A stretch of 64,000 nucleotides of DNA from NCBI GenBank assembly GCA_018902385.1, contig JABSSW010000011.1, positions 796,565-860,564 on the forward strand, written 5' to 3'. Below are positions 1-48,220 of this stretch, piece by piece. Numbering within the stretch: the first letter of the stretch is position 1; each line of letters begins with the position of its first letter. The DNA is from Physcia stellaris (lineage: Eukaryota > Ascomycota > Lecanoromycetes > Caliciales > Physciaceae). The notes below the pieces were generated by a model. The model did no database searches, was not told the DNA's origin, and saw only the letters and a program-made list of their open reading frames with translations. The translations under genes were made by a program, and so were the position numbers.

Positions 1-1450
1 AAATTGAATTTCGTCGTCGTTCATGACAACAATATTATCAAAAACATCGACATAATCAAAACAAAAATTTCAAAAAATCGATTTGAAATATTCGTGCATG
101 AATCAATTTTGTTACGATCGCATTTTTTCAATTTTGTTTCGATCGACATTTCGTTCGCATGATACAATATTGCGAATATGTTTTACAAATAATCAAAATT
201 TTGAAAATTGAAATCGTTAACGTCGTCGTTTGAAAAATTATCGAAATCGAAATTATAAAAATTCGAATAAATGTTGAAATTTAATTTGTCGAAACACGAA
301 TATTCAACGTCGACATTTGTAATTTAATGAAATCAACAAAAAAAACGAAAACGCACAAATGTTCGATTTTTTGTTATGTCGTTGTTTTTGAAAATGTTGA
401 ATTGTCAAAAATTTTATCAAAATAAATCAAATTGAATCATTTACGATTTTTTATTGTATTTGTATTAACAATTGTTTGCATTCGATAAAATGATAATAGA
501 AAAAAATATCATAAAAATAACGAAAAATTGAAACAAATTCGCAAAAATTCGCAAAATTTAAAAAAAAAAAACAATATAACGATTTTGACGCGAAAATTTT
601 GAAAATTTTAAATCGAAATCAATTTCGTCAAACGAAACAAATTCGTTCAATTCACAAATTTTTTGTTATGTAAATAATTTTTCTTCATAATTAATATTAA
701 ATTTATTTTATTTTTTATTATTTATTTCGTTTCAATTCGTAACATTTTGAAATTAACGTTTTGAACGATTTTGAATTTGTAATCGTAAAATAAATGCGAT
801 AAAAATCGTTTATTACGTCGCAAACATTATTAAATTTTTCGTTGTCGACATAATATCATATATTATTATACAATCAATTTGATCAATTGACACGATAATA
901 AAAACGATTATAATAATATCGAAATTTCAAAATATCGTTCATTTTTTATTCGAAATTTTCGTTGATTATGACAAAATCAAAAAATTCATTAATTTGATTT
1001 TCGAATAAATTACGAAAATTTTTGCGTAAAAATCAACAATGAAACACATCGTAAATATGCATAATTTCAAACAATTTCAATCGATATAAATTGTTTATAC
1101 GTTGTAATATTTTGTAAAAATTTAATTTTTTGTCATCGAATTTGTCAAACGATTTGATCGTTTTAATATTTTGTCGATCGAAAAAAACGAAAATTTTTTC
1201 GACGTATTTTACGATTTTTCGATATTTATTAATTTGAATTATTATACGTTTTTAAATCATTTTTGCATAATTTCGTACGTAATTGAAAATATTTTGCATC
1301 ATGTTAATAATATTTTTTGTTTTAATCATCAAAAGTTGTTTTTTCGTTATAACATACGAGATAAAATTTAATAAAAATTCATACGAAAATGAAAATTTTT
1401 ATTGATAAAAAATGAAAATAATTTTGTTATTGCAAATATTGCGTTGTTGT
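1..1450 (-). mobile_element. family D Ty3/Gypsy remnant, copy I, 3' part (integrase C-terminus and chromodomain)
   Basis: This stretch matches, on the minus strand, the distal integrase and chromodomain part of copies A (about 13480-14240), B (about 42120-42880) and C (about 62900-63600). It shares the same short blocks in the same order, for example around 780-1060 and 1150-1380. It is heavily C-to-T mutated, and no continuous frame survives. Its LTR would lie left of the window and is not seen. The copy is interrupted at 1450 by element H and resumes at 9046: the five bases GTTGT before H are repeated directly after it. Family membership is read from shared sequence; the domain names come from the less damaged copies. 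Confidence 0.7.
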
Positions 1451-1665
1451 TGTGACGAACGTACATCGAATTCAACATCTGACAGAATTAACATCGAATT
1501 AACATCGTTATCTTATCACATCGAATGTTAAAATCGAAATTCGACTTGACGCATTCAAGAAATCAAATTTTCTACATATATTTTTGCAAATCTCATGTAT
1601 TTGCTTTTCACTTCGATATTTTCGTATAGTTATGTAATAATATCATATCATTGCATAGCATTTCA
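1451..1665 (+). repeat. 5' LTR of element H
   Basis: 215 bp, starting TGTGACGAAC and ending AGCATTTCA. It aligns without gaps to 8826-9040 with 11 differences, all transitions: nine in CpT/ApG context and two in CpA/TpG context. The target duplication GTTGT lies immediately left. No clear tRNA primer site can be read after it, as expected if mutated. Confidence 0.93.
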
Positions 1666-2189
1666 CATTATATCGAAATCATTTTTTTTTCATATTCGTT
1701 CATGATACGCGAGCATTCAAATAAACAAAGCTTTTTACAATTAAATTCAGTGAACGAATAAAAACATAATAGATTCAATCTGATTTTGATCATTCAACGA
1801 AAACAACGAAACATAATAGACTCGTTGTGAATTGAAAAAAACGAAACATAATAAATTCGTTTGTTTTGTCTTAAAAAACGTTCAAAACAGACAAATTCAC
1901 GCGATAGTTTCGATTCACAATACAACAAAACTTTTCTTTTTTATCACTTCTGACGAAGCATTCGTGCTTGAAAATCAGAAAATCATTAAATCAGAAAAAA
2001 CATCAACAAACAAACATTTTTATTCAACATTCATTTGTTTCATTATAAGCAAACATCTAGAAATTTCATTCAACATCACATCGAATTTGTCATTCTAAGT
2101 GAAATTCAATCATCAAGATTTATTTAAATCATTGTTTTGCTCATTTTTTTTTTTTTGTTTCAACAATTATTCGATTTCAATTCACAATC
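1666..2189 (+). other. leader of element H between LTR and gag
   Basis: 524 bp of AT-rich sequence. The primer-binding site would be at its left end but is not recognisable. An 88-codon open frame at 1832-2098 has no recognisable domain and may be the mutated gag N-terminus or chance. Two short repeats of a phrase like aaacataatagattcg (about 1763 and 1811) occur here. Nothing else is evident. Confidence 0.5.
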
Positions 2190-3579
2190 ATGATTTTTTC
2201 AAGTTTTTTTCTCGAAATCAATCTGAAAGATCGATTATTGCTTAGCGAAATCACACAATTGAACGTGTATGTTTCTGATCGAATAATCACAAATTTCGAA
2301 CAGCATATCATCGACATTTTTTTTGTTTTAAATTTTAATCAAGATGACGATGAACTTGATGAAAATGAATCGTTCAAAATCGTTAATTCGATAAACATTT
2401 TTTCGAAACAACAATTTCAATCAATGATCGTCAATCATCTCGACGAACTATGAACTATTTTCGAAATTTTTCGACGAGATCGAGATCGAGAAATGATCGT
2501 CATTCGAATTTGAAATTTTCAAATGAAAAACATGAAAATCAAAATCTCGAATCATAACAAAAAAAAATATGAAATCAATGAAATTTTGCGTGTCGTCAAA
2601 GTCGAAATCTTTGTTGTTCAAACTCAATGTAATGAATTTTTCAAAATTCAACGTGTTCGTGAAAATAAAAATAAACAACGAAAAAAAACTATTAAATTAT
2701 CAAAGTCTGAAGAATTTTTCAATTTCGAAAAAAAATTTCGTTTTGAATTTAAGAAGCGCTCGTTCAAACAATTTGATTTTCTTGTTGAAAAATTTCGATC
2801 TGATTTTAAGACGCGCTCGTTTCGACATTTTGATTTTTTTATTTTTTTTGAACATAAGAATTTCAATACATTCGAATACATTCGCTACGATATCTGAAAG
2901 AATAAATGCATTGATAAGTTGAAAGTCAATTTCGACTGATACGTCGATAAGTTCAAAGAGATTTTTGCAATTATTGAATGAACAGAAAAAAAATTCGCGA
3001 AGCATATCGATATTCGACGCGAAATTAAACGCAATTTTTTCGAATCAACTGATCAAATCTTCAAGCTTTTGAACGACATTTATATCGATGTTGATCATTT
3101 TCGAAACGTTCGTCGTCAATACGATGATTTGAAAATGAAATTCATTGAATTTTTCAACGAATTCTATTTCGAATTTCTTTTTTTAATCAATCAATTGCTC
3201 AAGAAGAACGAGAAAGACAAAATTCACGATTTCGAAAAAAAAAATCACAACGAAATTTCAACATGTCGACGTTGTTTTGAACGATTATGAGATTTTTGAC
3301 GATTATTTTCGCAAATTTCAAATCATGAATAACAAACATTGTCGCATCAAAAAGAACGATGTTAAAATCAATATTTTTTTCACTAGAAACAAATCATCGA
3401 CAAGTCAGTTAAGTTTTCGAGTTCGTCGCAATGAGCAATACATAAAAAATTTGAAAACTAAATATACGACTTTTTTGAAGAAAAAGACGTATAAGATTGT
3501 CATTGTTCGTTCTAATTTGTTTAAACTGAAAAAAAAATGCCGAAAGTGTGATGAAGAAAATCATTGATAAAAAAAATGC
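2190..3579 (+). pseudogene. decayed gag of element H with CCHC zinc knuckle
   Basis: Gag would form the particle that packages the element RNA. A charged N-terminal part (2190-2900) is followed by a Ty3-type capsid-like segment (about 2900-3330), including a recognisable block around 3060-3200 (FLNDIYxDVD-like, then RRQYDDLKMK). A retroviral-type knuckle C-x2-C-x4-H-x4-C lies at 3538-3579, with two stop codons between the His and the last Cys. The frame is broken several times (stops and frame changes near 2453, 2897 and 3290). The start at 2190 is the first ATG of a frame leading into recognisable sequence and is uncertain. Confidence 0.72.
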
Positions 3580-3848
3580 ATTTTTGACAAATCATTTGAT
3601 AATTGAATCGACAATTTGATCAAACAAAAAATGTTTAATTTGCAAATCATTTTTTTGATCAACGATAATTTTTCAAGCATCGACGACGATAATATAAATT
3701 TCGATGTTTCAATCACATTCGACGTTGAATCGAAAAACTAACAATTTCTTTCGAAAACGCGAAAAAGATTATCAAAGTTTGTTCACGAAACTTTCAGCAT
3801 AACATCTTTAACGAATTTCATTGTAAGTTTTTAGTTAAAAAGATAAAT

Positions 3849-4777
3849 TTGTTTTCGAATGATAAAAAAATCATGATTCATGATTTAATTGATATCGATG
3901 CTTTTGAATACGTTTTCATTAGTGAAGAAACTGCGCAAAGAATATGTCATAAATTAGAATTAATTTCAGTTTTTTTATTTCGATTTAAAAGAGTTTTTAA
4001 TTTCGAAAAAACGAAAGTCAAATCTATTATTCATCAAATATTGCTCAAAATGACGATACAGAATTATTCAGAACTTTTCGTTTCATTGTTCATCATCAGA
4101 ATAGAACAGCATTCGCTGATTTTAAAAAAATCTTGAATGAACAAACACGAAATGATTTTTAATATGATCAATAACGAATGTTATTTCATTTCAAATCATT
4201 GCGATCACGTTGAAATTTTTTTTCTGTTTTCACGTTCGTTTATATTTCAGAAATTGTTTAATTCGATTCAGCAATCGAATAAAACGTTCTATTTATCATT
4301 TTCGAATCGATTTTTAACGTCGTTTTCGTCGACAAGCGTTCAGAAATATCAGATATTTCAAAAACGATTCGTTTCGACATTTTCTCGAATAATTCTTTCT
4401 CGTTTTACTGTGAAAGACACGAAGAAAAACGAACAATCAGTAAAAAAATTTTTGATTTCAGACTTCAAATATGTCATTGAGAAAATAAACAAGAATTATT
4501 TTTCAAGTAAATTTTTCAAAAAGAAACGAAAATTGAAAATTATACGCGAAACTCAAAAATCGATTTTGATCAACGCATCAATAAAAAGACTCGACATAGT
4601 CAAGAAATTCACGCGTCGATTCAGTCGACAATTCAAAATTACAATTTTCGAGATGAAAAATGACGAACAGAATCTCGATTCTGATACATCGTTGAATGTC
4701 GTCTTTATTGACGCGACGATTTTTCAATCGCTAGTCGAATCTAAAAAAAAAAAAAAAAAAAAAATCAAGACATTTCG
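3849..4777 (+). pseudogene. decayed retropepsin and linker of element H
   Basis: An aspartic protease would cut the polyprotein. The catalytic D-T/S-G-A is seen as LIDIDAFEY (about 3882-3908): the Thr and Gly codons have become Ile and Asp by C-to-T and G-to-A changes. A flap and C-terminal half follow to about 4200 (QHSLILKKS, then a TGA where Trp is expected, then MNKHE). The rest, 4200-4777, is a Ser/Lys-rich linker to reverse transcriptase and ends in a run of about 20 A at 4743-4762. Assignment rests on the motif and on position between gag and RT. Confidence 0.72.
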
Positions 4778-6250
4778 TTGATCATGAAAAAACTGAACGA
4801 AATTATTGACAACGTCAAAAAAAAATTAATTAAAATAAAAATTGATTTTGATTTGAATTTCAAAAAAACTCTTAAGATCATGAAAACAATCGTCGAGAAA
4901 TTAAAGCGTAAAATTTTTGAATTTCTTAAACGATTCGAAAGTGTATTCAATTCGAAAAAAGTCGACAAGTTATTTTTTCATAAATTTTACGATCACAAAA
5001 TCGAATTGACGAAAAGTTCGAATCAATTATTTCGAAGTCGAGTTTATTTTTTATCGTTTAAAAAACTCGAAATCTTTCAAAAGTATTTACACGATAATTT
5101 TCAAAAAGAATTTATCAATTCAAACAAAACGTTTTATGTTTCATTCATTTTATTCGTCGTCAAGTCAAACGAACAATTTCGTTTGTGTGTCGATTATCGA
5201 AAGTTGAACGTCATAATCAAGCGTAATAATTATTTTATTTCGTTGATTGAAGAAATTCTCGCTAAAGTTATCGATTGTAAATTTTTGTTCAAGTTGAATA
5301 TTATATCGATTTTCAATAAATTTCGAATGAATTCACAAAGCGAAAATCTTATTATTTTCATATGTTCGTTAGACATTTACAAGTATCATGTGTTGTTTTT
5401 CGATTTTATCAATGATTCAGTCAATTGACAACATTACATGAATGATTTGTTGTTTGAATATATTAATCATTTTTGTCAAATGTATTTGAATGATATTTTC
5501 ATTTACAGTAAAATTCGAAAGCAACATGAGCGACATTTCATTCAAGTTTTTCAAAAGTTGAAAAAAATTGATTTTCAAATCGATATCAAGAAGTGCGAAT
5601 TTTTTCAAACAAAAATTTCATTTTTAAAAGTCATACTATCGACAGAAAATTTACGCATGAATTTCAAGAAAATGCAAAACATCGTCAATTGAATTCGCTC
5701 AACATGCATCAAGAAAATGCAAACGTTTGTGAATTTCTGCAATTTTTATCGACGTTTCATCAAAACGTTTTCGAAATTCGTCAAGTTCTTAACTCGAATG
5801 ATCAAAAAGAAAATTGATTTCGAATGAATTGATTTCGCTAACGAGACATTCGAAATTTTGAAAAAACAAATAATCGAAATTTCAATTTTTCGACATTACG
5901 ATCGCAATCGTAAAACTATTTTGAAAATCGATTTTTCAAATTGATGTTTAGATGAAGTTCTATTTCAATACGACGACGACGAAATTTTGCATTCAGTGAT
6001 TTTTTTCAGCAAGAAGATGATTTCTGTCGAGTGCAATTACGAAATATATGACAAAGAATTTCTGATCATTATTCGATGCTTAAAACATTGAAAATTCGAA
6101 CTCGAAGATATTGACGAATCAGTCGAAATTTATATCGATCACAAAAATTTCGAAAATCTTTATGACAAACAAAAATTTATTTTTCGTCAAATACGTTGAA
6201 TCGAAATTTTGACGAATTACAACATCAAATTCAATATCAATTCGAAATCA
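4778..6250 (+). pseudogene. decayed reverse transcriptase and RNase H of element H
   Basis: These domains would copy element RNA to DNA. RT fingers and palm are seen in order: FHKFYDHKIEL (about 4975), QFRLCVDYRKLN (about 5180), an FKLNIISIFNKFRM block (about 5290; family norm KLD..AFN.IR), and the catalytic YxDD box as YLNDIFIYSK (about 5485-5515), where the first Asp is now Asn. RNase H follows with TILKIDFSN (about 5920), [12 protein letters not shown] (about 6035) and IYIDHKNFE (about 6130). Stops at 5426, 5690, 5816 and 5942 are TGA, several of them where the family has Trp. The domain order is clear, and the gene is certainly non-functional. Confidence 0.88.
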
Positions 6251-6589
6251 AAAACGTCAAAACGAATGTTTTGATTAGAATGTTTGAATTTCGTTTCGTC
6301 GAAAACGACGAACGTGAATTTTATAAAAAACAAATTTTGTTGTCATTTTTTCGATTGCAATTATGTTCGATTGACGTTTAAAACGATTTATACGAACGCG
6401 TCATGCAAATCAATCGAAACAACGAAAATTGTATTAATTATCGTCAAATTTTGATCGATGAACAAATTATCAACGAAAAAATAAATTTGCAAAATTGTTT
6501 CGATCGAAACGAAATTTTTTTAAAAACGAAAATTTATGAATGTCAAACAAATTAAATTTCATGATTGAAATAATTCGTGACGTTCACGA

Positions 6590-7870
6590 TCAATTCTTTT
6601 GTGCACATTCGAACATGAATCGTATTGAAAAATTCATTAAACGTTATTATTATTGATTTAATATGAAATTATTTATCAAACGTTATATTCGTAATTGTCA
6701 CAAATGTCAACGATCGAAATTTTCACACGATAATCGTCACGAATTATTAATTTCATTGTCGATTTTTAATCAACGATGAATTGATATATCGATGAATTTC
6801 ATAATGAATTATTTGATTTCAAAACAACAATGTCATTTGTATTATTATCGATCGTTTAATCAAAAACGTCATTACGTTTTTTGCGTGACTGATGACGATG
6901 ATTTAACAATTCAAATTTGTGTCAAAATATTGTTTCATTACGTATTTCGTATTCATGAATTATTTTTTCATTATTTCAAATCGAAATGATCAATTCGTAA
7001 ATCGCGTTTGAAAAATTTTTGTAAACGATTAAAAATCAAATGTAAATTGTTTACTGTTTTTCAATCTGAAATCGATGATCAGATCGAGCGAGCGAATCAA
7101 AATATCGAAATTCGATTGCGTTTGTATTGCAATTATCGTCAAGACGATTGAGTTGATTGAATAAATATCATGAAATTCGTTGACAACAACGATGTTTCAA
7201 CAATCATCGAGTTCATTTCATTTTTCACTAATAAAAGTTATCATTTTCGAATGATTTTTGAATCAAATTTGAATGATTACGATATCATTAGAAAACGTTT
7301 GTTGACTAAGCAAGACGAATTCATTGCCGAAAAAATGAATCGTATCATCGAATACGTCAAAGTCAATGCTGTCAATGCAAAACAGAAAATGATTGCTCGA
7401 GTCAACGAGTCTCGTTTTTCAATAAGCTTTGAAATAGAAAATTACGTTTGACTAAATCGTCGTCATATAAAAACAGTTCGTTCGTCAAACAAATTGAACG
7501 ACAAAAAATTAAATTCATACAAAATGATCAAAAAAAAGATTTCGTTTATGAGTTGAAATTATTCGACGATATACACATTCATTCAATTTTTCATTTTTGA
7601 TTATTAAAAAAAAAAATTAGAAATTCGTTAAAGAAACAACATAACGATTTTTCAAAATCAATTATCGCAAACGAAATATTTGAATGAAAATTCGATAATA
7701 TATTGCAATTTCGATATCATTATTATCGTTTTCAATATCGTTGCAAATGATCGAATTGAAATTTTCATAATCGAATTTGATATTATGTCGACGATGACGA
7801 ATTTCAAAATGTTCAAAACATCGTGAATGTTTTTCACGAAATTAATTCAAAAACAACGAAATTTGTTTTA
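6590..7870 (+). pseudogene. decayed integrase and chromodomain-like tail of element H
   Basis: Integrase would insert the cDNA. The HHCC zinc region is traceable at about 6600-6720 (His-containing FVHIRT..., then NCHKCQRSK). The catalytic core runs about 6770-7160 with FIMNYLISKQ, the Q..R.NQNIE-like block near 7095 and DDWVDW-like residues near 7145. The C-terminal domain (7170-7451) is open for 93 codons. A chromodomain-like stretch with aromatic-rich residues is traceable at about 7690-7850, and such tails guide integration to heterochromatin in chromoviruses. Frames are broken by many TGA codons. The chromodomain call is weaker than the core call. Confidence 0.75.
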
Positions 7871-8164
7871 CGAAATGATTAAATTGTAAACATCGTTTAT
7901 GATCGATCAAAAAACGTCAACATGAATTCGTTACAATTCATTGTCAAATTGATTCAAATAATTTTTGTTTCGATTTTCAATTTTCATGTTATTTCGCGTT
8001 ATTTACAATCAAAATTTACGTCGCATGAAAAATTGAATCGTGTCAAAAATATTTTCAAAAATTGTCGTCAAATTTTATTGAACAATGAAAATAATAAAAA
8101 GATGTCATGCAATGAGATGAATAAACAACAAATTGTCAAAAAATTTGAATATTTACAAATTCGT

Positions 8165-8660
8165 CAACAAAATTTTCAATTGTTTATTAATGACACGCGA
8201 AATTATTTGTAAAATTCGTTCAAAATATTTGCTTTTCAAAAAATTTAATACATTCATGTTTCGTTGAATGCAATGTACGAATCAATCGTCGTATATGCGA
8301 TAACATCGACGCGTTAATCGTGATGACAAAAATTTTATCGATATAATCAAATTGTTCGTTTCGTGATATCAATTTGATGTTACAAAAATTTTCAAAATTG
8401 TTGATACGTTAAATCGAATTCACAATTGTTTGTTTATTAATGTTCGTCGAAATTATTTTTGACGAAATGTATAAATTGATTATTTTTCAAAACATTCATT
8501 ACATTCACGTTTTGTCGCATGCAATGTACACAAAAATTTTCGCATACGCGAAAATGTCAATGCGTTAAACATTGTTACGATAATTTTATTAACAAAATCA
8601 AATTGTTCATTTCATCGTAAATCGATTTGATGTTTTCACGATTTTTGACGAATCGATTTC
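8165..8660 (+). repeat. tandem duplication of about 250 bp in the 3' region of element H
   Basis: Two head-to-tail copies share the order of blocks: aattgtttattaatg, aaaattatttttg, a TGCAATGTAC box, ATATGCGA-like and GTTAA boxes, then aatcaaattgttc and aatttgatgtt. The TGCAATGTAC box occurs at about 8270 and 8521, 251 bp apart. It lies between the integrase and the 3' LTR. No coding function is visible. Confidence 0.65.
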
Positions 8661-8825
8661 GCGAACGAAATCGATTTCACAACATTTCGAATTTATTTTT
8701 TCATTTTATCAATCATTCAATTCAACGTCATTCAACAACGCATTTAAATCGCGCAAAACGTTCGTCATTAAAAAAAAAATTCAATTGATCGTTTCGAAAC
8801 GAAATTGAAAAAAAACGAAAAATAA
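8661..8825 (+). other. 3' end of element H with polypurine tract
   Basis: AT-rich sequence. Immediately before the 3' LTR is a purine-rich run, gaaattgaaaaaaaacgaaa followed by aataa. This is the expected position of the polypurine tract that primes plus-strand DNA synthesis. Confidence 0.55.
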
Positions 8826-9040
8826 TGTGACGAACGTACATCGAATTCAACATTTGACAAAATTAACATCGAATTAACATCGTTATTTTATCACATCGAA
8901 TGTTAAAATCGAAATTCGATTTGACGCATTCAAGAAATCAAATTTTTTACATATGTTTTTGCAAATTTCATGTATTTGCTTTTCATTTCGATATTTTCGT
9001 GTAATTATGTAGTAATATCATATCATTGCATAGCATTTCA
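8826..9040 (+). repeat. 3' LTR of element H
   Basis: 215 bp, same start and end as 1451-1665. It carries more C-to-T and G-to-A changes than the 5' copy (eight CpT/ApG-type changes here against one in the 5' LTR). The target duplication GTTGT follows at 9041-9045. Confidence 0.93.
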
Positions 9041-9424
9041 GTTGTTTGCAAATTCGATTATAAACAATTAAACGTTTTAATCGTTTTGTATGTAATTGCA
9101 AATTGTCGCAATTGTTTTTCGATATTTTGATTGATTTTTTCGATTTTTCATCGATTTTTAAATGAAAAACGATGAAAAATTTACATTTGATATCGAAAAT
9201 TCGACAAAATGTTTGTTAAACGAACGATATAAATTGAAAATTTCGATCAAACGTTATAAAAAAAAAAAATTTATATGTACGAAATACGTAATTGATGAAT
9301 ATTTTAATTGTAATTTCAATATTAATATTTTTCGTCGACGATACAAAACACGTAATGACGTTTTTTGTTAAATTTTCAATTATCGTTTTATAACATTATG
9401 ATCGTAAACGTCGAACAATTCGAT
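9041..9424 (-). mobile_element. continuation of family D copy I (integrase) after element H
   Basis: The sequence gttgtttgcaaattcg that follows H continues exactly as in copies A (14225 onward) and B (42885 onward). This confirms that H is inserted in an integrase of family D lying on the minus strand. Similarity stops abruptly at about 9424, where an unrelated 226-bp repeat begins. The 69-codon plus-strand frame at 9162-9371 is the antisense of this integrase and is not a gene. Confidence 0.75.
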
Positions 9425-9650
9425 AATAAAATTCATTATTATAATACAAAATTGTATAATATAAAAAAAATAAATTCATTAATTAGAAAAAATGTTGATT
9501 AAATATTACACGTGTCAAAACATTATAATTTCGAAACAATCATTTATTAATTATTTAATTAATTTTATCAATATGTCAATATCATAACAAATGCACAACA
9601 ACAAAGAAAATTGAATGTTTTCATTGACATATTTAATTTATACATATAAT
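9425..9650. repeat. inverted repeat copy 1, pair of 22450-22690
   Basis: 226 bp whose reverse complement matches about 22450-22690 along most of its length, including blocks TGTATAAATTAAAT, TTGTTGTTGTGCATTTGTTAT, GATTGTTTCGAAAT and TGTAATATTTAATCAAC. The second copy follows the chromodomain of element G, so this may be the terminal or LTR segment of a G-like element in the opposite orientation. It abuts exactly the LTR of copy A at 9651. Its identity is not settled. Confidence 0.6.
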
Positions 9651-9898
9651 TATCATAAATCGTGTTTGTATAATTGTATTGATTAATTAATTAGACGAAA
9701 ACAATAAATTTGCAAAAACAAATAAATACAAAATGTTGAAATTGCAAACAATGTACGACGTTAAATTTCAAATCACGTTAATTTCGACGTAAAATTAAAA
9801 CATAATTCGTTGTTCGATCACATATTATATTAATTATTTATTTGTCAAATTTATTTATCAAATTTATTTGTCAAAATTTGTCAAAATGTTAAAAAACA
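9651..9898 (-). repeat. 3' LTR of family D copy A
   Basis: About 248 bp, reading on the plus strand from TATCATAAATCGTG to the degraded equivalent of TGTTCGTAACA. In element sense the LTR runs TGTTACGA...TCATGATA, with an ancestral CA end likely changed to TA. To its right is a degraded polypurine tract (plus strand ttttttttcgcgaacg), which shows that the element body lies to the right. Confidence 0.85.
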
Positions 9899-10239
9899 TT
9901 TTTTTTTCGCGAACGTCGTTTAAATAATTCGTTGTTGTTTCGAAATTTTGAAAATTTTGTTGAATTGATTTGAATGACGTTTAAAAATTTTTTTAATTAT
10001 TTTATTTTTTGATATTTTGTTGTCGTTTTCAACGTTCGATAAAATTTGACAACAATTTTTCAAAATGTTTTTGACACGATTCAATTTTAAATGCGATGTA
10101 AATTTTGATTGTAAAAAACATCGAAACGATAATAAAAATTGAAAATCGAAAAAAATCGAAAAAATGAAAATCTAAATGAATGTATCGAATTTGAAATTTT
10201 CAAATTTTAATCGAATGTAATTTCAATAAAAATCAAAAT
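9899..10239 (-). other. 3' untranslated region of copy A, left of element F
   Basis: Collinear with 41756-42110 of copy B and 62550-62890 of copy C. Contains no frame of note. Element F interrupts it after AAAAT at 10235-10239, and the uninterrupted sequence can be read in copy B near 42095-42120. Confidence 0.6.
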
Positions 10240-13460: not shown

Positions 13461-13465
13461 AAAAC

Positions 13466-37480: not shown

Positions 37481-39480
37481 AAATCGTTTTTTCGATATAA
37501 AAAATTGCATTGTTTTCAATGTCGATTTGTTTTTGTGCATTCAACAAAACGATAATTTTTTTAAACAAGATTTTTGATGTAATCTTTCAACAAACGATTA
37601 CGAAAAAAAATTTCATTTCAATCAATGTAATGATTAACAATGCATTTAATTCATTTTTGTCGAAAATTTTTTTAATATTGTTATTGAAATTGATTAAACG
37701 AAATAAAACGTTTGACATTATATGTTGTTTGTCAAACTTATGTCAAATATCAAAATTAAAACGTTGTATGTAATTCGACGCGCGCACGAATCGAAAATTA
37801 AATTTGTCAATTGACGAAATAATGAAAAAAATTTGTTTGACAATTTTTAACGTCGAATCATGATTTGTATAAATAACGATTGATAACACGAACGAATTGA
37901 TAAAATGTTTTATTTTTTTCAATATTCAAACAATGTCAATCAATTTTAATTCGATTGATCAATAACGCGTTTCGATTGAAATAAATAATCGATTAAAAAA
38001 CAATATGAATTCAATGAATTTTCGAAATGAATAATCGATGTTATTTCAATTTGCGAATGATTTCACGTGATAAATCATGACATTTAATTCGAATTTTTTA
38101 TTAACATCGAAATCGACAAATATTTGTCGTTTGTTGTCATAATGAATTAAATATGAAAATTTGAACAACAAAAATTGCAATAAACGAAAAAATTCGATTT
38201 TCAAAAATGATCATTATTTAGTCGAATTCGACTTGAATATGTTTTTTAACGTTGTCAACTTTGAAAAAAAATTTTAACAATTCAATTTTTCGTTTTTGTA
38301 ACGTTTTGAATACGTCAACGTAAAACGACACGTAATCACGTAATCAATCAATCAAATTTAAATAAATTTCGAATTGACGTAAAATTTTTGAAAATGAAAA
38401 TTTCGTTATAATTTTCAATTTCTTTTCATTGATTGACAATTCAAATGAATCGATTTTTTGATCGAATAATCGAACAAACGAATAATTTAAAAAGACTTTG
38501 TTAAATTTGATGAATATATTGTTTTGACGTAACATGTCGAAAACAAATCGCAAATGTTGAACATGTTTTTCGACAATTTTGAAATAAATGACGATATCAT
38601 CGACGTAAATTCGTGCAAATCGACGAAATTTGCGCAATAATCGATTTATTTGTCGTTGCACGTAAATCGATGAATTTTTGTAATTCATGACGATCACGTT
38701 GAAAAATTTTTGATTTCGATACGTAACGACAATAAATTTGTGTTTGTCGTTCGAATGTACGCGTCATTGATAAAAAAACAAACGCGTTTACAATCGAAAT
38801 GAAAAAACAATTGCGAACGATCGATATAATGTCAATTTGTAATGACAAAAAATAAACATTTGATTGTGTAATAGCGTTTAATTCGCGTATATTTACAATT
38901 ATTTTTTTTTCATCATCGACGTTTTTTCAAACAACGAACGTCGAATAATTAAATGACGTTGAATCAATAATTCAAAACAAACGATTTTGTTCGTGAAATT
39001 CGTCAAACGTTTTATCGATTAAATTTTTGTCGCGTTGATCAAATGAATAAATTTTGATTTTGTTGTTAATTCGATTTTTTCAATCAAATTTCAAAAAATA
39101 CGCATTCAATTATTTTGAAACAATTCGACGAAATCGATATTTTTTCATAATGTCGAAAATTCGTCGATTATGTTGACGAAAAATTGAATAACGTTTGATT
39201 GATGTATCGTGACGTCGTTAAAAAAATTATTTCAAAAAAATTGTTTGCGAAAAATTTCGCGTCAAAATCGATAACATCGATTGTAATTTGAATAGAAAAA
39301 ATTCTCGTTTCGAAATTAGAAAAAATTTCGCAATTCAAATACGAAAATTAAAAAATTTTTGCAATTCGAATACGAACGATTCGACAATGTAAACGACATT
39401 TTTTGACAAAATGAAATCGATTGAAATTTTTGACAAAACGATGTTGATCACGACAATGACGATTACGTTGACGACGACGA
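37481..39480 (-). pseudogene. decayed reverse transcriptase and RNase H of element J
   Basis: 38344-38697 reads MNYKNSSIYVQRQINRLLR...ARIYVDDIVIYFKIVEKHVQHLR, almost residue for residue the E sequence at 52711-52860. The catalytic YVDD (about 38600) is intact although surrounding codons are mutated. The segment continues to LFDQKIDSFEL and EIYLNLID, then TGA for Trp. RNase H ends at about 37690 with DKQHIMSNVLFRL (KPGKQHIVPDALSRL in E). Confidence 0.85.
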
Positions 39481-39502
39481 CGATTATTATAAATTTTTTG
39501 AA

Positions 39503-40326
39503 TCAAAATGTTTTGTGTTCAAATTTAAATTTTCGTTTAATCAATTCGACGACGTTTTCGTTTTCGTTTAAATGATAAATTTGCGAAAAATCAAATTCAA
39601 TCAATTTGTTTAATCGAAAATTGCGTGATATTTTGACAACGTTATTCGAATCGTTGATAATCAAAACGATTTTAATGTCGACGTCAATTATGTGAACATA
39701 TAAAATGAAATTTGATTCGTCAAATTCGAATAAAAAATCACGATTGACGAACAATTCGTCGACTAAATGATGTATGAAAATAATCATTTGATTTCGCGAC
39801 GACAACACGATAATTTTTTTGACATAAATAAAACGTTATTGAACGTGATGAACGCGTGAACGAACGTCAAAAATTATAATCATTTCACAATTATCAATAA
39901 AAATTTGCTTTTTGATCAAATCGAAAACGACGTTTTTTGACACAATGACATCGTTATCGATAAACATGTTGATTTTAAAATTGTTCATTAAATGTATTTC
40001 GCGACGAATAAAAATTTTGATTGAATTATCGTTTTTGACGTCGACAAAATACATTGACACAATAACATAATTTGAATTTTGATGTTGTGAAATATTTAAA
40101 TCACGCACGATAAAAAACGTAATTATTTGACGTATCGAAACGTCAAAATTTTGTCGATGAAAAAAATTGCGTTTATTAACGTTACGTTGACATCAATATC
40201 GAAACATACGTCGTTTTTTTTTTATTTTCGATTAGCGACACGTTTTTTTTGACATATAATCAATCGCGAAATTCAAAATTAATGTCGAGATTTTTGAAAA
40301 CGTCAACTTTTGACGAAATTATTGAC
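39503..40326 (-). pseudogene. decayed retropepsin region of element J
   Basis: The active site is seen as CFDIDVNVTLINA at about 40210-40172 (minus), the mutated form of C-L-D-T-G-A-x-V-T-L. It is followed by VRDLNISQHQNSNYVIVSMYF...IRREIHLMNNFKINMFIDND (39836-40108) and FVNRDFLFEFDESNFILYVHIIDV (39503-39808). Both match E at 51330-51480 and 51640-51740. In J the segments follow each other as in E, which helps locate the frame breaks of E. The part upstream, VDVFKNLDINFEFRD (about 40310-40265), matches VDFSKDVGTGYGFRG of E. Confidence 0.83.
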
Positions 40327-40331
40327 GTTTT

Positions 40332-40568
40332 TGTTACGAACATGTCTGACAGATAAATTTGACAAATAGATAATTGATATGATAAATGATTAAACAAATA
40401 TGTTTGAATCGAATTATGTTTTAATTTTCTGACGAAATTAGCGTGATTTGAAACTTGACGTTCGCACATTGTTTACAATTTCATCATTTTGTACATATTT
40501 GTTTTTGCAAATTTATGATTTTCGTCTAATTAATCAATATTACGTTTACTCAAGCACGATTCATGATA
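40332..40568 (+). repeat. 5' LTR of copy D
   Basis: 237 bp, TGTTACGAACATGTCTG...GATTCATGATA. Differs from the 3' LTR (62017-62254) mostly at CpT/ApG positions (tctgac/tttgac, atagat/aaataa, ttagcg/ttaacg). It is followed by the leader block TTACAATAAATTTTCAATTT shared with the 5' ends of A and B. Confidence 0.9.
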
Positions 40569-41508
40569 TTACAATAAATTTTCAATTTTTATCGCTCGTC
40601 GTGATACGCAAACGTTCAAAAATAAAACTTTAAATCGATCAAGTTTTTCTGACGAAACAAACGACGAAAAAAATTTGCTGATCAAGCAAACGATCAAAAA
40701 ATCTTTCTGACGAGACATTTGATAAAAATCGTGAAATAACAAATCGAATTTTCACGTAATCGACGATAGAAAACGAGAATTGATTCGATTAATTTTTTTT
40801 TTTTTATATTTTCAATATTTCATTCTCAACAAGCAGACTCGGAATTTTTTAAAAAAATTCTCTTCGAAGCGATTTCAGAATTAGAACTGAATCTGATAAA
40901 ATTGCGAAATTCGATATCTCGTCATTGCTTTGCGATTTCACGAATTTCGCATCTTAATAACATTTGCATTCAATGAGTAAAATTTTATACAAAAATTCAT
41001 ATTGAAACACGAAATGAATTCTATTCAAATAATCAAAAATATCGAAAATCGATCGAATGCGCATGAAATTATGATCGAAATCGTATTGAAACATTGCAAA
41101 CATTGTTAAGAATTGAATTTTCAAAAACAAAACATTTGCGAAACAGACACAAATTTGACAACGACGTAATTTTCGAAATTTCAAAATTATTGCGATAATG
41201 AATCGATTTTTGTTATTTTTGCAACGTTAAATTGCGCTCATTCAACTTTACAAAGCTGATTAAATGAATGAAAATCATATGTGATTTTTGATTGAAATGC
41301 AAAATGCGAAACAACTGTATAAACATTGATAAAAATTGAACGAAACATTTTCGCAAACATTTTCGCAAACATTTCAGTTGTTTGACACAAATTTGACAAC
41401 GACATGATTTTTCAAATCTCAAAACTATTGCGATAATGAACGAATTTTTGTCATTTTTATCGCGTTGAAATGCGCTAATTTTGCTTTACAATATTGAATA
41501 ATCAAGTG
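40569..41508 (+). other. leader of copy D, first part, with 238-bp tandem repeat
   Basis: Non-coding leader that continues after the nested elements at 55783-56040. It contains a repeat unit of about 238 bp. The box CACAAATTTGACAACGAC occurs at 41148 and 41386, followed in both by ATTGCGATAATGAA and a GCGCT-AATT block. A third partial unit starts at about 41485 and is continued at 55783. It retains many CpT, ApG and even CC/GG dinucleotides, unlike the coding part of D. The small minus frames here (40954-41184, 41213-41422) share a CRCQICV peptide only because they lie in repeat units. Confidence 0.7.
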
Positions 41509-41755
41509 TATCATGAGTCGTGCTTATATGACTGTATTGATTGATTAATTAGACGAAAACAATAAGTTTGCAGAAACAAATAAATACAAAATGTTGAAAT
41601 TGCAAACAATGTGCGACGTCAAATTTCAAATCACGTTAATTTCGACGTAGAATTAAAACATAATTCGCTGTTCGATCATATCATATCAACTATTTATTTA
41701 TCAAATCTATCTGTCAGACATTTGTCAAATTTATCTGTCAAACATGTTCGTAACA
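41509..41755 (-). repeat. 3' LTR of copy B
   Basis: 247 bp, plus strand TATCATGAGTCG...TGTTCGTAACA. The adjoining right-hand sequence, in element sense gaaaagaaaaaaataa before TGTTACG, is the polypurine tract. The left flank AAGTG is half of the target duplication. Confidence 0.9.
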
Positions 41756-43870
41756 TTATTTTTTTCTTTTCGCGAGCGTCGTTTCGACGATTCGTCGTTG
41801 ATTCGAAACGAAAACGTTGTCGATTGTTTTGAATGAATTCAGAATTCGAAATTTTCACGATCATCATTTTTTGATTTTTTCAATATGTTGTATCAATTCA
41901 CAGTTCAGTAAAATCGAACAACAATTTTTGAAAATGTTTTTGACACGATTCAATTTTTTATGCGACGTAAATTTTGATTGTAAACAACGTCGAAACGATG
42001 ATAATGAAATTTGAAATTGAAAAAAAAATTTTGAAACGAACGAATGAAATCAAAATGAATTCAAATTCAATTGAAATTTTCAAATTTTAATCGAACGTAA
42101 TTTCAATGAATGTCAAAACGACGATTTTTTTTCGAAAACGACGACGATTCGCAAATGAATTTTGATTATCGATTTGAAAAACGAAAAAATAATTTTGAAT
42201 GATTTCGAATTTGCGACGATGAAATAAATTCGATGATAATTATTCATCACGTCACGAACATTATCGAATTTATCGTTATCGACGTAATATCAAATTCGAT
42301 TATGCGATCAGTTTGATCAATTGACGCGATATTGAAAACGATCGTAATGATATCGAAATTTTAAAATGTCGTTCATTTTTCATTCGAAATTCTCGTTGAT
42401 TACAACGAGATCGAATGATTCGTTGATTTGATTTTCGAAAAAATCACAAAAATTTTTGCGCAAAAATCAGCAATGAAACACATCATAAATTCGCATTGTT
42501 TCAAATAATTCAAATTGATAAAAATTGCTCATACGTTTTAACATTTTGTATGAATCAAGTTTTTTGTCATCAAACTTGTCGAATGATTTAGCGATTTTGA
42601 TGTTTCGTCGATTCAAAAAAACGTAATTTTTTTCGACGTATTCGACGATTTTGCGATATTTGTTGATTTGTGTCGTCATGCGTTTTTGAATTATTTCGAC
42701 GTGAATTCGTACATAATCGAAAATGTTTTGCATTGTGTTCGTGATGTTTTTCGTTTTAACGATCAAAAATCGTTTTTTTGTCGTGACATACGAAATAAAA
42801 TTCGATGTAAAAAATTCATACGTGAATGAAAATTCTTGTTGACGAAAAACGATGACAATTCAATAAATACAAAAATCGCGTTATTGTTTGCAAATTCGAT
42901 CATAAATAATCAAACGTTTCAATCGTTTTGCATGTAATTGCAATATTGTCGCAATTGTTTTTCGATGTTTTGATTGATTTTTTCGATTTGATCATCAGTT
43001 TTTGAATGAAAAATCGTGAAAAATTTACATTTGATGTCGAAAATTTTGCAAAATGTTTGTCATACGAAAAACACGAATTGAAAATCTCGATCAAATGTTA
43101 TGAAAAAAAACAAATCATGAATACGAAACACGTATTGAATGAATATTTTTGTTGTGATTTTAGCATTCGTGTTTTCGTTTTTCGCTGTACAAAATGCATA
43201 ATGACGTTTTTATTAAATTTGTCGATTATCGTGCAAATGACATTATGATCGTGAACGTCAAATAATTTCGTGATGAAATCAATGAATATATTCGTTCAAC
43301 GTTGCAAAAATATAATCAAAAAAATGAATAATTCGTTTTTACGATTTTTGAAAATTTTAATTCGTTGACATTCGTGACAATTACGTACGTATCGACGAAT
43401 TGTTTTGCGCATATTAAATCAATAATAATCATAACGTAAAAAATTTTTCATGCGATTAAATTCAGAATGATTCGATGCGAAAAATTCATGAATTTTTTTA
43501 AAAAAATCAACAAGCAAAAAAACATCGACGAACATTCATAATCGATTTTTGTAATATAAAACATCGTTTTTTTTTTGACAATCGCGTAAATTGATTTCAT
43601 TTACGAAAATGAAATTTTGATTGAATGTTTCACGATATGTTCAACAATCGTCGTTTGTTTTGTTTGCGACGAAAATTCGTTCGTAAATTGATTCGTCAAA
43701 TTCGACGACATGAATTTCGAATCGTTTTGAAATGAACAACATTTGTTTTTTATATTGATGTCGTTCATCGTTATCGTTTTTAAATCGTGAATTCGACATG
43801 CGAATCAAAACGTCTGTTTTAACGTTTTGAATTTCTGATTGAAATTGAATGACGATATTGAATTTCGATA
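41756..43870 (-). pseudogene. decayed integrase, chromodomain and 3' end of copy B
   Basis: Minus strand. The C-terminal integrase segment 42467-42766 reads VRIHVEIIQKRMTTQINKYRKIVEYVEKNYVFLNRRNIKIAKSF...MRIYDVFHC, the best preserved example in the window. The chromodomain lies at about 42230-42440, the core and HHCC region at 42800-43860, and 3' untranslated sequence at 41756-42120. The plus frame 43006-43248 is antisense. Confidence 0.77.
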
Positions 43871-43988
43871 AAATTTCTGCTCAACGAATTTGACGAAAAA
43901 TTAACTTTTTCGAAATCATGAAAATTTTCAGATTTTTGTGATCGATGAAAATCTTGATCGATTCGTCAATTTTTTCGAATTTTGAACG

Positions 43989-45397
43989 TCAATGTTTCAA
44001 ACAACGAATGATGATCAATAATTTTTTGTCATAAATTTCGTAATTGCATTCGATTGAAATCATGTTTCGACTGTAAAAAACAACGAAATGCAAAATTTTT
44101 TCGTCATCGTATTGCGATAGCATTTTCGCATTGACGTAATTTGAAAAATCGATTTTTAAAATGATTTGTTTGATTTTATCGTAATGACGAAATATGAAAA
44201 TTTCGATCATCGTTTTTTTGAATAAATTGAAAATTTTTTCGATTTTCGTAATTCATTCGAAATTTACGAGTTTCTTGATCATGCGAGTGAAAATTTTGAT
44301 TTTTTTCGAGAAATCGCGAATGAAACGTCGATAAAAATTGACGAAATTCACGAAAATTTGAATTTTTTTGAAATTGATAAAACGTGTTCAATCAATTATG
44401 ATTTGCATTTTTTTGAATTCATGCGAAAATCATTTATCGAAAATATAACGTTCAAAAAAATCATTTTTTTTTTGAAAAATTCGCATTTTTCAATATTCAT
44501 TTGTAAATCGATTTTTTTGAGTTTTTTCAACATTGTTCGAACGTGCACGATATGTTTTTTTTTGAATTTGTTGTAAATGAATATGTCATTCAAATAAATT
44601 TGACAGAATTCGTTCAAAAAATTGAACAAAAAATCATTCATATAATGTTGTCAATTTGCAAAATCGTTGATTAATTCAAAAATAATATTCGATATTTATA
44701 CGATTTCATAAAAATGACGAACGTGATGAATTTTTCATTTTTTTCATTCATTCGAAATTTATTGAAAATTAATATAATATTCACTTGATCAAATATTTGC
44801 AATTTTGAATTTTGTCAAAATTTTTTCAATCAAGAAAATGAAATATCGATTGCGTTTCGTAATGTGATTGAATCGACGATAATTCACACACAAACGTAAT
44901 TAATCGTTGAATTTGATCGCAAATAAAACAAATGAAACATATGTCGTTTGACTAAATACGATAAATTTTTTTGCAAATTTTTTTCAAATATTTTTTCAAT
45001 TTTTTAAGTTTGAATTCGAATAAAAATACATTCGATTGCGAAACAAAAAACTGTTATCGTTCAACAATTCGATTTTATGATCGTATAATTTATGAAAAAA
45101 CAATTTGATGATTTTTTGAAAATCAAATACTTTTGATAAATGACGAAAATATTTTGACATTTTTTTCATTATGCGTTCGAATATCGACTTGATTTGTTCG
45201 TGTTTTAGAATTTTTTTGATCATGACGACGATTTTTAACGATTCAAAATTCGTTTGTAATGTTTTGAACGCGAAATCGATTTGATTGATCGTAATGAAAA
45301 AACATTGAACGTTTTGTTTTCGATTTTTGACATCGATCAACAAACAAAAAAAAATTGCATCAATTATTGCGATATTCATCGAATCGTCAAAATTCAA
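43989..45397 (-). pseudogene. decayed reverse transcriptase and RNase H of copy B
   Basis: RT: FFHKLYDHKIEL (about 45075), the LRLCVN-like block (about 44890) and YLNDIFIYNK (about 44590). RNase [55 protein letters not shown] (43989-44210), in which only the usual Gly, Pro and Trp positions have been lost. Upstream, 45100-45397 is the protease-RT linker. Stops and small indels separate the frames. Confidence 0.84.
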
Positions 45398-45928
45398 TTC
45401 TGAAAATAACGAAAGTTTTGATTGTTGTTTTTTCGTTTTTCATCGTTTATTACGTTGATTTTTCAGTTTTTTTTTTGACGAATATCGTTTTCGTAACAAT
45501 CGTGATATCAATTTTTGAATTATTTGATTCGATTGTTGACGACTCGTCGTCGATATCGATTTTTGAATGAATTGAATATTCGAAACATTTCGAATCGATT
45601 ATATTTGATTCGTTTTCAACAATAAAAAATAAAAATTTGATTTTGAAACGAAACAAAATGATATATCGAAATTTTATCGTCGTTATGTGTTTTGTATTAT
45701 TTTTCGACGATAATTTTGCATCGCGACGTCAATTAAATACATTTTATCGACGATTTGATTTGAAAATTTTTAAACGACGAATTTGTATCGTTTGATTGAA
45801 TATGTTGTCGTAATAATTACATTTGAACGATTTAAAAATCAATTTATCGTAAATCATGTTCAATATAATTTTATGTTTGTTCATTTACGATTTTTTTAAA
45901 ATTATCGAATGATTATCGAAATCAATAA

Positions 45929-46300
45929 TTAACAAAAAAAAATGATCAATTCGAAATGTAATTTTATTGTCAATTTGAAATATATCGCGTGAATTATAAA
46001 AAAAACATAACGATCATCGAATTCAATCAATGATTTCGATTTCAATAAAAATACGAATTTCATGTTTAGCATGTTGCATACAAATTGCGCGATTTTTTTA
46101 TCAATGAACGCATAATCGATTGCATCAATGTTTATTAAAATTTTTAATTTATGTTTATTATCGTTGAATGATAACGTACAAATGATGATTAAAAATCGTT
46201 TGATGAAAAAGTCAAACATATTATCATCGTGAATAAAAAAATTTTTTTAAACATTCATCAATCGTGTTTTCGATGTGAATTGTTAATTTTTCGAATCAAA
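45929..46300 (-). pseudogene. decayed retropepsin of copy B
   Basis: The minus frame 45929-46219 contains LINIDAIDYAFIDKKIAQFVC followed by FVFLLKSKSLIEF, nearly identical to copies A and D. The active-site Asp-Thr-Gly has become Asn-Ile-Asp. The sequence between this and RT (45400-45928) is linker without a motif. Confidence 0.78.
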
Positions 46301-46390
46301 TTCGTTCGAATCGATATCAAAATTCAATTGATATATTTGTAATTTATGTCATTGACGTTTTTGAAATTTGTTGACGTTGAAACAAAATTT

Positions 46391-47640
46391 TCAATTGTGA
46401 TCGAATTTTTCACACGTGAAACATTTGTTCGTGACGATCAATTGATCGATGATCGAATCATGTTTATGATCGTTTTTGAATTTGACGAAAAACGTCGACG
46501 TAATTGATTTAACAAACGAAATTGCAATCGAAACAACAAAAATCGTTTTGAAAAACATTAAAATTGATTTTTGAATTCGAATTCGATTTTTTTTTTTTCG
46601 AATGTTGATCAAATCGTTGTACATTTGTTGAATGTCATTTTTTCACGCGAACAAAATAAAGTGATGACGAAACGAATTGTTCAAAATTTGTTTCAACGAC
46701 ATGATGAATTTGTTGTCAATTAAATTTTTTATCAACGTGAATTGATCGAAATTGATTTAAATATTCAAACGATGAAAATTCGAATAAAAAAATTGAAAAT
46801 TTTGAATGTCGAACATGATCAAATTTCGATATTTTCGACGTACGTTACGTTAATGATTTGAATTTTCATAAATGTTTTCGAAAAAATTGATTATCATTAT
46901 TTCATTTTCGAAATAATTCAGATTGTTGTATTTGCGAAATTGAATATGTTTAATTGTTTTTTTTTCAGTTCAGTCAATTATTGTCGTGATCATGAAACGA
47001 ACAATTTCGTATCAATCATTGTTGATCGTGAATTTATCGTGAACGTTGATTTTTCATGTAAATCAATCAAAATTCAAATCGTTCGTGAATTTATCGAAAT
47101 TCGAATGTTTATTCGTGCGTTTTTTTTTTCGAAAATTTGACAAAATTTGTAACGATCGAATCGTCAATAACAAATTTTTTTTCGTCATCATCGATATTGT
47201 TTGAATTTTCATTTGAATCGAAATTGAAAACACGTTCAAAACGACGAATTTTATTCAATTTGATCAAATCGTCATATTTAATACGTTTGTCAACGAATTG
47301 ATTCATCATTCGTTTTTTTTTTTCGAACGTTTTAAATCTGTCGCGTATTTGTTCAAAGATATTATCGATATCGAATAGATTTTTTTTTTGAATCTTGAAC
47401 AATTTGACGAATTCGTGAAAATTTTTTAAAACGATCAAATATTTGTTTCGATCGATACGTAAATCATTGAACACGTTCAAGAAATTGTCGAAATGATGTT
47501 GAATTCAATATTTCAATTGACGAACAATTTTTATGTTCAAAAAGTGCGTGATATCGTCGTTTTGATTCGACACAACGTCTGAAATAAAAAAAAATTGACG
47601 AAATTTGTAACGAATCGTGAATTTTTCATCGATTTCGTGA
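46391..47640 (-). pseudogene. decayed gag of copy B
   Basis: The N-terminal part 47109-47480 is a 123-codon charged frame (RIDRNKYLIVLKNFHEFVKLF and further Lys/Asp-rich sequence, coiled-coil-like). The C-terminal part contains C-F-T-C...F-D-H (46391-46430), the first half of a CCHC knuckle, preceded by IDQLIVTNK. The capsid region between them is not readable by eye. Confidence 0.65.
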
Positions 47641-47973
47641 ATTTCGTTCAGCATTTATTCAACGTTTTTGTATTTCGTCAATATTCAGAATTTGGCGAAA
47701 TGAATTGAGTGAAGTTGTTTCATGATGACTGCGAGTCATCTCGAGAAAATAAGAAAAAAAAATAGAAAATCGTCGTCGTTTCGTCGTTTTTTATCGTCGA
47801 AAATTTCGTCGTTTGCGTGTAAATTCGATTTGTAATTACACGATTTTCGTCGTTTGTTTCGTCAAAAGAATTTTTCGTCGTTTGTTTTTCACGAAAAACT
47901 TGATCGATTTGAAATTTTATTTTTGAACGTTCGCGTATCACGACGAGCGATAAAAATTGAAAATTTATTGTAA

Positions 47974-48220
47974 TATCATGAATCGTGCTTGTATGACTGT
48001 ATTGATTGATTAACTAAACGAAAACAATAAATTTGCAGAAACAAATAGATACAAAATGTTGAAATTGCAAACAGTGTGCGACGTCAAATTTCAAATCACG
48101 CTAATTTCGACGTAAAATTAAAACATAGTTCGCTGCTCGATCATATTATATCAATTATCTATTTGTCAGATCTATTTGCTAAACATTTATCTGATTTATC
48201 TGTCAAACATGCTCGTAACA
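47974..48220 (-). repeat. 5' LTR of copy B
   Basis: 247 bp, plus strand TATCATGAATCGTGCTTG...TGCTCGTAACA. The leader block shared with copies A and D lies to its left. It keeps several CT, AG and GCT words lost in copy A. AAGTG follows at 48221-48225. Confidence 0.9.

Follow-up and report, generated by a model that had tools for sequence, protein, structure and literature searches.

The window analysed here is the whole stretch of 64,000 nucleotides at positions 796565-860564 of contig C11 of Physcia stellaris, running to the contig end in an assembly of 44 Mb and 147 contigs. Most of it is repeat DNA from which CpC and CpT have been almost erased by C-to-T change, a pattern that recalls repeat-induced point mutation (RIP) with another choice of target sites, and an unmutated long terminal repeat (LTR) retroelement interrupts this decayed DNA. 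P. stellaris is a lichen-forming fungus; its published draft, obtained from an ascospore culture with Nanopore and Illumina reads, comprises 184 scaffolds, 46.57 Mb and a guanine-plus-cytosine (GC) content of 43.3% (PMC7513301), totals somewhat unlike those of the assembly used here. In that paper, 'RIP' occurs three times, each time as 'RiPP', and 'transpos' does not occur. The features of the window are the following.

1..48226, no strand: decayed repeat DNA with CpC and CpT (GpG and ApG) erased, from dinucleotide counts and edge profile
1801..7000, no strand: less decayed repeat family, at least 37 matched places on 27 contigs, its own place counted
4778..5428, plus strand: decayed reverse-transcriptase open reading frame without Pro, Gly or Trp, from its translation; relatives elsewhere are equally depleted
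15700..19861, no strand: repeat copy, 93% identical to 44020-48221
41499..47135, no strand: repeat copy whose match to the reverse complement of 56609-62264 has 81% identity
48227..48231, plus strand: left target-site duplication AAATC, from sequence
48232..55777, plus strand: Ty3/gypsy-type LTR retroelement, unmutated, with TG...CA ends, from composition, ends and LTRs; the comparison standard
48232..48401, plus strand: 5' LTR of about 170 bp; its alignment to the 3' LTR has 97.7% identity, with 1 mismatch and 3 gap positions
55609..55777, plus strand: 3' LTR, from LTR alignment
55778..55782, plus strand: right target-site duplication AAATC (5 bp), from sequence
55778..64000, no strand: decayed DNA, mutated again up to the contig end, with observed/expected (O/E) ratios of 0.01 for CC and 0.07 for CT

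The copy count of the 1801-7000 family is a lower bound, 32 of 433 first-look candidates having been scored. Few CpT are left in 15700-19861, and most of these are TpT in 44020-48221.

Within 1-48200, GC content is 0.252 and both CC and GG have an O/E of 0.00, with 3 sites each, where base composition alone would predict about 758 CC. The ratios for CT and AG are 0.13 and 0.15, while CA (1.24), TG (1.23) and especially CG (3.85) are common and TA is low (0.45). A first-pass annotation of this DNA had described CC, CT, GG and AG as nearly absent and CG and CA/TG as common; this is correct, the depletion being stronger than it could demonstrate, and its sample count at 14041-14220 is exact (CG 15, CA 5, and 0 for CC, CT, GG and AG). 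Likewise, Pro, Gly and Trp occur in none of the six frames of 27096-27398 and 28216-28461, whereas most frames contain Gln, His and Met. The pattern does not end at 48200, the limit that it gave, and resumes at 55778-64000. On contig C11 the decay starts near 783,000, at an abrupt border with normal DNA, forming a block of about 77 kb that reaches the contig end with the unmutated element interrupting it.

The element at 48232-55777 has a normal composition (GC 0.531; O/E of 0.95 for CC, 1.09 for CT, 1.10 for CA and 0.88 for CG). The transition is abrupt: the first CC or GG lies at most 7 bases from its left end and the last at most 7 from its right end. Similarly sharp edges are observed at L024, L027 and L035, three mixed loci picked for edge profiles because they had already been seen as mixed, where CC plus GG counts of about 30-60 per 400 bp drop to 0 over a few hundred bases. 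Near the edge of its decayed block, at about 3200-5200, L027 has a GC content of 14-18%, less than the 25% at which pure CpY conversion would bottom out (Y, pyrimidine); these stretches may be older DNA or spacer that was AT-rich from the start. All decayed stretches tested are repeats, and three gene loci (L018-L020) have a normal composition, as does a gene-side pool of 100 kb that was itself picked by composition: 10 loci hand-picked as normal, to the exclusion of 3 mixed and 2 decayed ones (GC 48.6%). Given a genome GC of 43.3%, 48.6% in this pool and 25% in decayed DNA, very roughly one fifth of the assembly would be decayed.

Which cytosines change can be read from aligned copies. The alignments cover the unmutated element with its three full-length relatives (L006, L007 and L008; 77-78% identity) and pairs among the fetched loci, rather than the whole genome. 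In L006, C-to-T conversion has affected 976 of 1039 CC (94%) and 585 of 1022 CT (57%), but only 29 of 998 CA (2.9%) and 5 of 930 CG (0.5%). L007 (CC 983/1038, CT 661/1017, CA 28/997, CG 4/928) and L008 (CC 878/1001, CT 610/970, CA 32/984, CG 11/925) behave similarly. Both strands are affected: L006 carries 888 C>T changes along with 714 of the G>A type, and 39 others in about 7,500 sites. The reverse-direction background in the same copy is 7 of 979 for CA (0.7%) and 5 of 936 for CG. Thus, CpG conversion is at background, whereas CpA conversion is weak yet above it, which suggests that a weak CpA activity is left. Expressed as hits per site, CC received 2.8 and CG 0.005, an approximately 500-fold choice. 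By contrast, the 5' neighbour has a small effect, with 93-95% of NCC and 55-63% of NCT converted across the four bases. The youngest mutated copies have lost nearly all CpC while keeping 35-43% of CpT, so CpC is hit first and CpT next. The context order is, therefore, CpC > CpT >> CpA > CpG: the sites least favoured by textbook RIP are wrecked by C-to-T change, and its usual CpA target is almost untouched.

These counts bear out the first-pass proposal of a RIP-like process that prefers a following pyrimidine. Dominance of CpA-to-TpA, which would have spoken against that proposal, is not found among the alignable copies (CpA 2.9%, CpC 94%), and unmutated relatives do not already lack CC and CT, as the intact element has both at normal levels. 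This last observation also rules out an ancestral sequence without CC/CT. Decay of the CpG type is rejected too, as CpG is the best preserved context (5/930 and 4/928).

The CpT states of L006 and L007 are nearly independent: both are mutated at a fraction of 0.414 of sites, against 0.376 expected, and about 40% of CpT sites have different states in the two copies. L007 (small contig C125) and L008 (small contig C129) agree, by contrast, at 944 of 969 CpT sites and have about 9 kb in common, including flank. Because CpT states and flank are shared, they represent either a duplication of one mutated copy or one locus in two versions. The aligned element keeps 69 CC in L008 versus 7 in L007, with 157 gap positions between the two over 9 kb; the cause would be a duplicate contig left unpolished or a real difference in dose. 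Patches of strand bias in CpT conversion were looked for within 25 bp, and the correlations (0.04-0.10 on the same strand, 0.00-0.05 across strands) were too weak to use.

Runs of cytosines carry information about the order of conversion. In L006, CCC followed by A has become TTC (28), CTC (13) or TTT (4) and in no case TCC, and CCC followed by G has become CTC (17) or TTC (14). Runs of four gave TTTC (9), TCTC (6) and two other outcomes; when followed by A, TTTC (5), TCTC (3) and one other. Among 108 three-C runs of L007, T followed by C at the first two places occurs in 3 (TCG 1, TCT 2) and TCC in none. Consistently, conversion reaches the first C less often in CCC (69% in L006, 83% in L007) than in CCA, CCG or CCT (97-99% and 95-98%, respectively), a contrast that is smaller in L008 (78% versus 85-93%). 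As CCC turns into CTC or TTC and hardly ever into TCC, it is the current 3' neighbour that governs each cytosine, step by step; in the simplest reading, once its 3' neighbour has changed, a cytosine is handled as part of a CpT. A scheme in which all cytosines are methylated and then deaminated without mutual influence would not fit, unless a 5-methylcytosine at position +1 is read like thymine.

The same preference is observed in other repeat families. In four pairs from two other groups (L009-L011, L013-L014), the cells that differ amount to 57-66% for CT, 3-8% for CA and 3-4% for CG; by the same measure, L006 and L007 differ at 55%, 2% and 0.5%. Five pairs within the window give 71-100% for CT (7 to 92 cells), 8-27% for CA and 4-18% for CG, the more diverged of them having higher CA and CG values and many transversions. 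Such a rise in CA and CG is as expected from ordinary age, and some slow CpA conversion is possible. A simulation of full CpY conversion of the intact element on both strands yields a GC of 0.257 and O/E of 3.79 for CG, 0.33 for TA and 1.50 for CA, close to the decayed window (0.252, 3.85, 0.45 and 1.24); with 10% CpA conversion added, the values become 0.242, 4.27, 0.43 and 1.41. Because pure CpY conversion fits so closely, decayed DNA is approximately at its end point, with little else having happened.

The damage to coding sequence follows from this choice of sites. Over the five long frames of the element (2303 aligned codons, frame overlaps counted twice), L006 has kept 0 of 194 Pro, 1 of 146 Gly and 0 of 35 Trp codons, but 65 of 66 His, 88 of 92 Gln, 25 of 27 Met and 25 of 25 Cys. 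L007 has kept 4 of 193 Pro, 0 of 146 Gly and 1 of 35 Trp, with 64 of 66 His and 89 of 91 Gln. L006 has acquired 38 new stop codons, of which 34 are TGG to TGA, and L007 has acquired 33; were conversion complete, 35 would arise under CpY and 127 under CpA. Frames that are open and free of Pro, Gly and Trp are thus explained, as CpY conversion strips these residues and creates few stops, almost solely from TGG. For the same reason, long open frames persist in decayed elements (4137-5428, 24819-25574 and similar).

Comparable proteins occur in other data sets. The reverse-transcriptase frame at 4778-5425 has 175 relatives among public proteins, largely from ENA, and among the best 120 of them Pro plus Gly plus Trp is under 2% in 102 and over 6% in 2. 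In the same 120, His, Gln, Met and Cys are mostly kept, with group medians of 8-11%; the corresponding values in an intact frame (residues 101 onwards of a 369-residue frame) are 14% and 10%. In 19 aligned relatives, YPLPL-like motifs appear as YSISL or YFISL. This depletion speaks for recurrence and not for frequency, since a word-based search favours such hits and some of them may come from Physcia itself.

CpA-based RIP indices do not register this decay; RIPCAL has CpC and CpT indices as well (its equations 5 and 7). Decayed DNA has a TpA/ApT of 0.45, a (CpA+TpG)/(ApC+GpT) of 1.32 and a composite of -0.87, versus -0.56 in the gene-side pool, and 0 of 110 decayed windows are RIP-positive by the Hane-Oliver thresholds or by the stricter ones that RIPper reportedly applies. 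Classical CpA RIP is rejected on these grounds, with TpA depleted, the composite negative and CpA converted at 2.9%. The methylation induced premeiotically of Ascobolus, methylation without mutation, is rejected because massive sequence change is seen. Two hallmarks of RIP in the broad sense are nevertheless present: C:G-to-T:A change dominates on both strands (only 39 other changes in L006), and a RID/Masc1-family gene exists in the genome.

Comparison with described systems, within the excerpts available, places the pattern among known processes of this kind. As in Neurospora crassa, C-to-T change affects both strands of repeats, GC collapses within sharp bounds, and the RID and DIM-2 families are present; the order reported there is CpA>CpT>CpG>CpC (PMC5496416), however, and its least favoured CpC is the top target in Physcia. 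The CpT half has precedents: CpT-to-TpT is main or frequent in Magnaporthe oryzae, Botrytis cinerea and Sclerotinia sclerotiorum (PMC4352252), and CpT changes are reported in Neurospora Tad1 and some Stagonospora nodorum repeats (PMC2621366) and in control genomes of van Wyk 2021 (PMC7882544). Nevertheless, the first three species carry a CpA signature beside CpT, unlike Physcia, and 'CpC' does not occur in that paper by Amselem. In Monilinia, CpC-to-TpT double mutations accompany classical CpA-to-TpA RIP (PMC8959702); CpC is hit in both fungi and is, of the two, the primary target only in Physcia. Trichoderma reesei also has a context unlike that of Neurospora, with CpA about equal to CpG, then CpT and CpC last (PMC5496416), and its homology-linked C-to-T change was seen in crosses; the last place of CpC sets it apart. 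A lower CpA preference has been noted in the nematode-trapping M. haptotylum. Rhizoctonia solani AG8 and Microbotryum, with their CpG bias, are further cases of context differing among lineages. In AG8, C/T single-nucleotide polymorphisms are commonest at CpC (one per 214 bp, versus one per 370 at CpG), and the authors stress the CpG bias; these are heterozygous sites, in genes and repeats alike, unnormalised for context frequency (PMC4014442). In contrast to both, Physcia fully spares CpG, and the loci of normal composition examined are unhit. Finally, the lichen fungus Cladonia rangiformis has strong repeat decay, RID and DIM-2 homologues and a ripped peak at about 16% GC (PMC12542154), lower than the CpY floor of about 25%; CpA, CpC and CpT are not mentioned in that paper. 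Among the open-licence papers searched, which did not include the main context survey (Clutterbuck 2011), no description of CpC-first, CpA-sparing RIP was found. In effect, the process is of a known, RIP-like kind, and its context specificity is new and extreme as far as the literature searches reach.

Candidates for the enzyme are available. A six-frame PF00145 search of the genome gave 4 matches in 3 genes, on contigs C3, C5 and C6, so that the search for RID/Masc1 and DIM-2 types proposed in the first-pass annotation yields a RID, a DIM-2 type and a second RID-family gene. The C3 gene is DIM-2-like and matches 9bap, presumably Neurospora DIM-2, with an E value of 4.6e-188 and a best stretch at residues 329-1014, in the C-terminal region. 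The C5 gene is a RID with EQT at motif VI; 112 of its 120 listed relatives read QT there, and 8 have no match to the motif expression. Its frame matches the P. stellaris protein P0121 (G7Y79_00005g016670) at 96% over 97% of 227 residues. The third gene is listed below.

C6, about 790909-792560 (L018:2410 to about 4060): second RID-family methyltransferase, EET at motif VI, PF00145 116.5 bits

This enzyme is smaller and has motifs I, IV (PPCQ), VI, VIII and X, found in its main frame and, as GNAVPP, in a frame lying further downstream in the gene. Its best named relative, at 72%, is from Heterodermia aff. obscurata, and Heterodermia also has a RID. In a FastTree phylogeny with 213 sequences (of 240 database proteins, 30 lacked the trimming motif and were dropped; the C5 protein entered twice), it falls, with a support of 0.98, in a 39-member clade distinct from the C5 RIDs; nodes further down have weak support, 0.04 at the deepest. 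EET is also found beyond that clade, in 39 of 59 further relatives. Thirteen positions separate C6-type (38 rows) from RID-type sequences (116 rows; the reference stands twice in each set), although at one of them just 8 and 11 rows could be compared. They include motif VI and the residues after PPCQ (FSPAQ versus FSDAH) and are candidates for a change of specificity, not evidence of one. The three methyltransferase gene loci (L018-L020) have normal CC, with an O/E of 0.95-0.96, and a Pre-SET (DIM-5-type) domain is found in the genome.

The pattern is very likely the product of active RIP-like C-to-T hypermutation that strikes repeats and chooses by the 3' neighbour, presumably through a RID/Masc1-family enzyme. 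A C5-methyltransferase of that family would be recruited to repeats in the sexual cycle, probably before meiosis and through their homology, and cytosines would be converted by methylation plus deamination or by direct deamination. The RID orthologue on C5 is a candidate; a more speculative one is the further enzyme of this family on C6, and DIM-2 on C3 may contribute where repeats are older. Once the 3' C of a CpC has been converted, the upstream C lies in a less readily converted CpT, and C runs are eaten stepwise. Genes are killed chiefly by the loss of Pro, Gly and Trp and not by stop codons. A bolder proposal, tentative and for now rather doubtful, is that an enzyme of this family in Caliciales, possibly the EET-motif one on C6, evolved to read a 3' C (then T) and reject purines, making the process an inverse of RIP that is widespread and overlooked, perhaps in lichens at large; a wide spread is suggested by the matching residue losses in proteins of other data sets.

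Several observations weigh against this account. Homology dependence would follow from association with repeats, and part of the decayed DNA may not be repeated. L008 retains more CC than its near-twin L007, a difference unexplained apart from many small indels. At least for now, one copy of a mutated family, the element at 48232-55777, can escape. The C6-type clade has Heterodermia as its sole named member besides Physcia, and its deep placement is weak. No DNA of relatives was found in viral and prokaryote contig collections.

Among other explanations, passive decay fares best, although it is unlikely. Here, heterochromatic repeats would carry 5-methylcytosine at CpC and CpT, placed by a DIM-2-like enzyme, and slow spontaneous deamination would do the rest with no RIP burst; a DIM-2 orthologue is present, and a review gives DIM-2 a CpT preference (PMC13297926). 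Nevertheless, L006 has 94% of CpC converted with only 39 other changes and with CpG at the level of the reverse direction. About 2.8 hits per CpC against a background of about 0.5% is an excess of hundreds-fold, far over ordinary 5-methylcytosine deamination, which brings about a ten-fold rise. In another reading, direct editing of the repeats by a cytosine deaminase that prefers a 3' pyrimidine would take the place of a methyltransferase. The end product would be the same, and the stepwise outcome at CCC suits an editor working one base at a time, but AID/APOBEC-type deaminases read the 5' neighbour, which hardly matters in Physcia; no deaminase search was made, and this alternative is improbable. 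Still less probable is that Nanopore miscalls of modified CpY cytosines created the pattern during sequencing or assembly. Nanopore reads do enter the assembly along with Illumina ones (PMC7513301) and repeats are hard to polish; the agreement of L007 and L008 is neutral here, as they are possibly one locus assembled twice. However, Illumina data do contribute to the assembly, a fixed context error would not produce the mismatch of L006 and L007 at about 40% of CpT sites, nor are about 25% GC over tens of kb and CC/GG limits within 7 bases of both element ends expected from it, and similarly decayed reverse transcriptases (the 102 of the best 120) come from other data sets. Finally, a second, CpY-type process on top of classical RIP, the other option raised at first, is hardly credible: the few CpA changes (29/998; 3-8% of cells in other families, 8-27% within the window) would accommodate it, but TA is depleted and CA above expectation, the opposite of simulated classical RIP (TA 1.98, CA 0), and CpY conversion fits without it.

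If active hypermutation of the inverse type is the right reading, its marks would be erased CpC and CpT, removal of Pro, Gly and Trp, few stops and blindness of CpA indices. Surveys based on TpA/ApT and (CpA+TpG)/(ApC+GpT) give decayed Physcia DNA a more negative RIP score than the normal DNA of its own genome; since CpA indices score such decay negative, RIP may have been missed in whole lineages. Gene finders, in turn, can report decayed transposons as proteins, because Pro, Gly and Trp are lost while frames often stay open. CpA is usually taken as the signature of RIP, and purified RID had no activity (PMC13297926). A nearly opposite preference, with its roughly 500-fold choice between CpC and CpG, offers a clean contrast from which the residues that recognise the adjacent base could be identified.

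Two observations concern sequences without mutation. The element at 48232-55777 is a young LTR element, intact in composition though its reading frames are interrupted, amid fully decayed DNA, and the three full-length relatives found are all mutated; it either postdates the last mutation round or escapes mutation. In addition, a search for 5S rRNA, with 47 of 1658 candidates scored, gave eight places over the cut-off on contigs C2, C12, C14, C15, C59 and C72, all dispersed, short and with a good family match. These genes appear to escape mutation, which would fit a length threshold.

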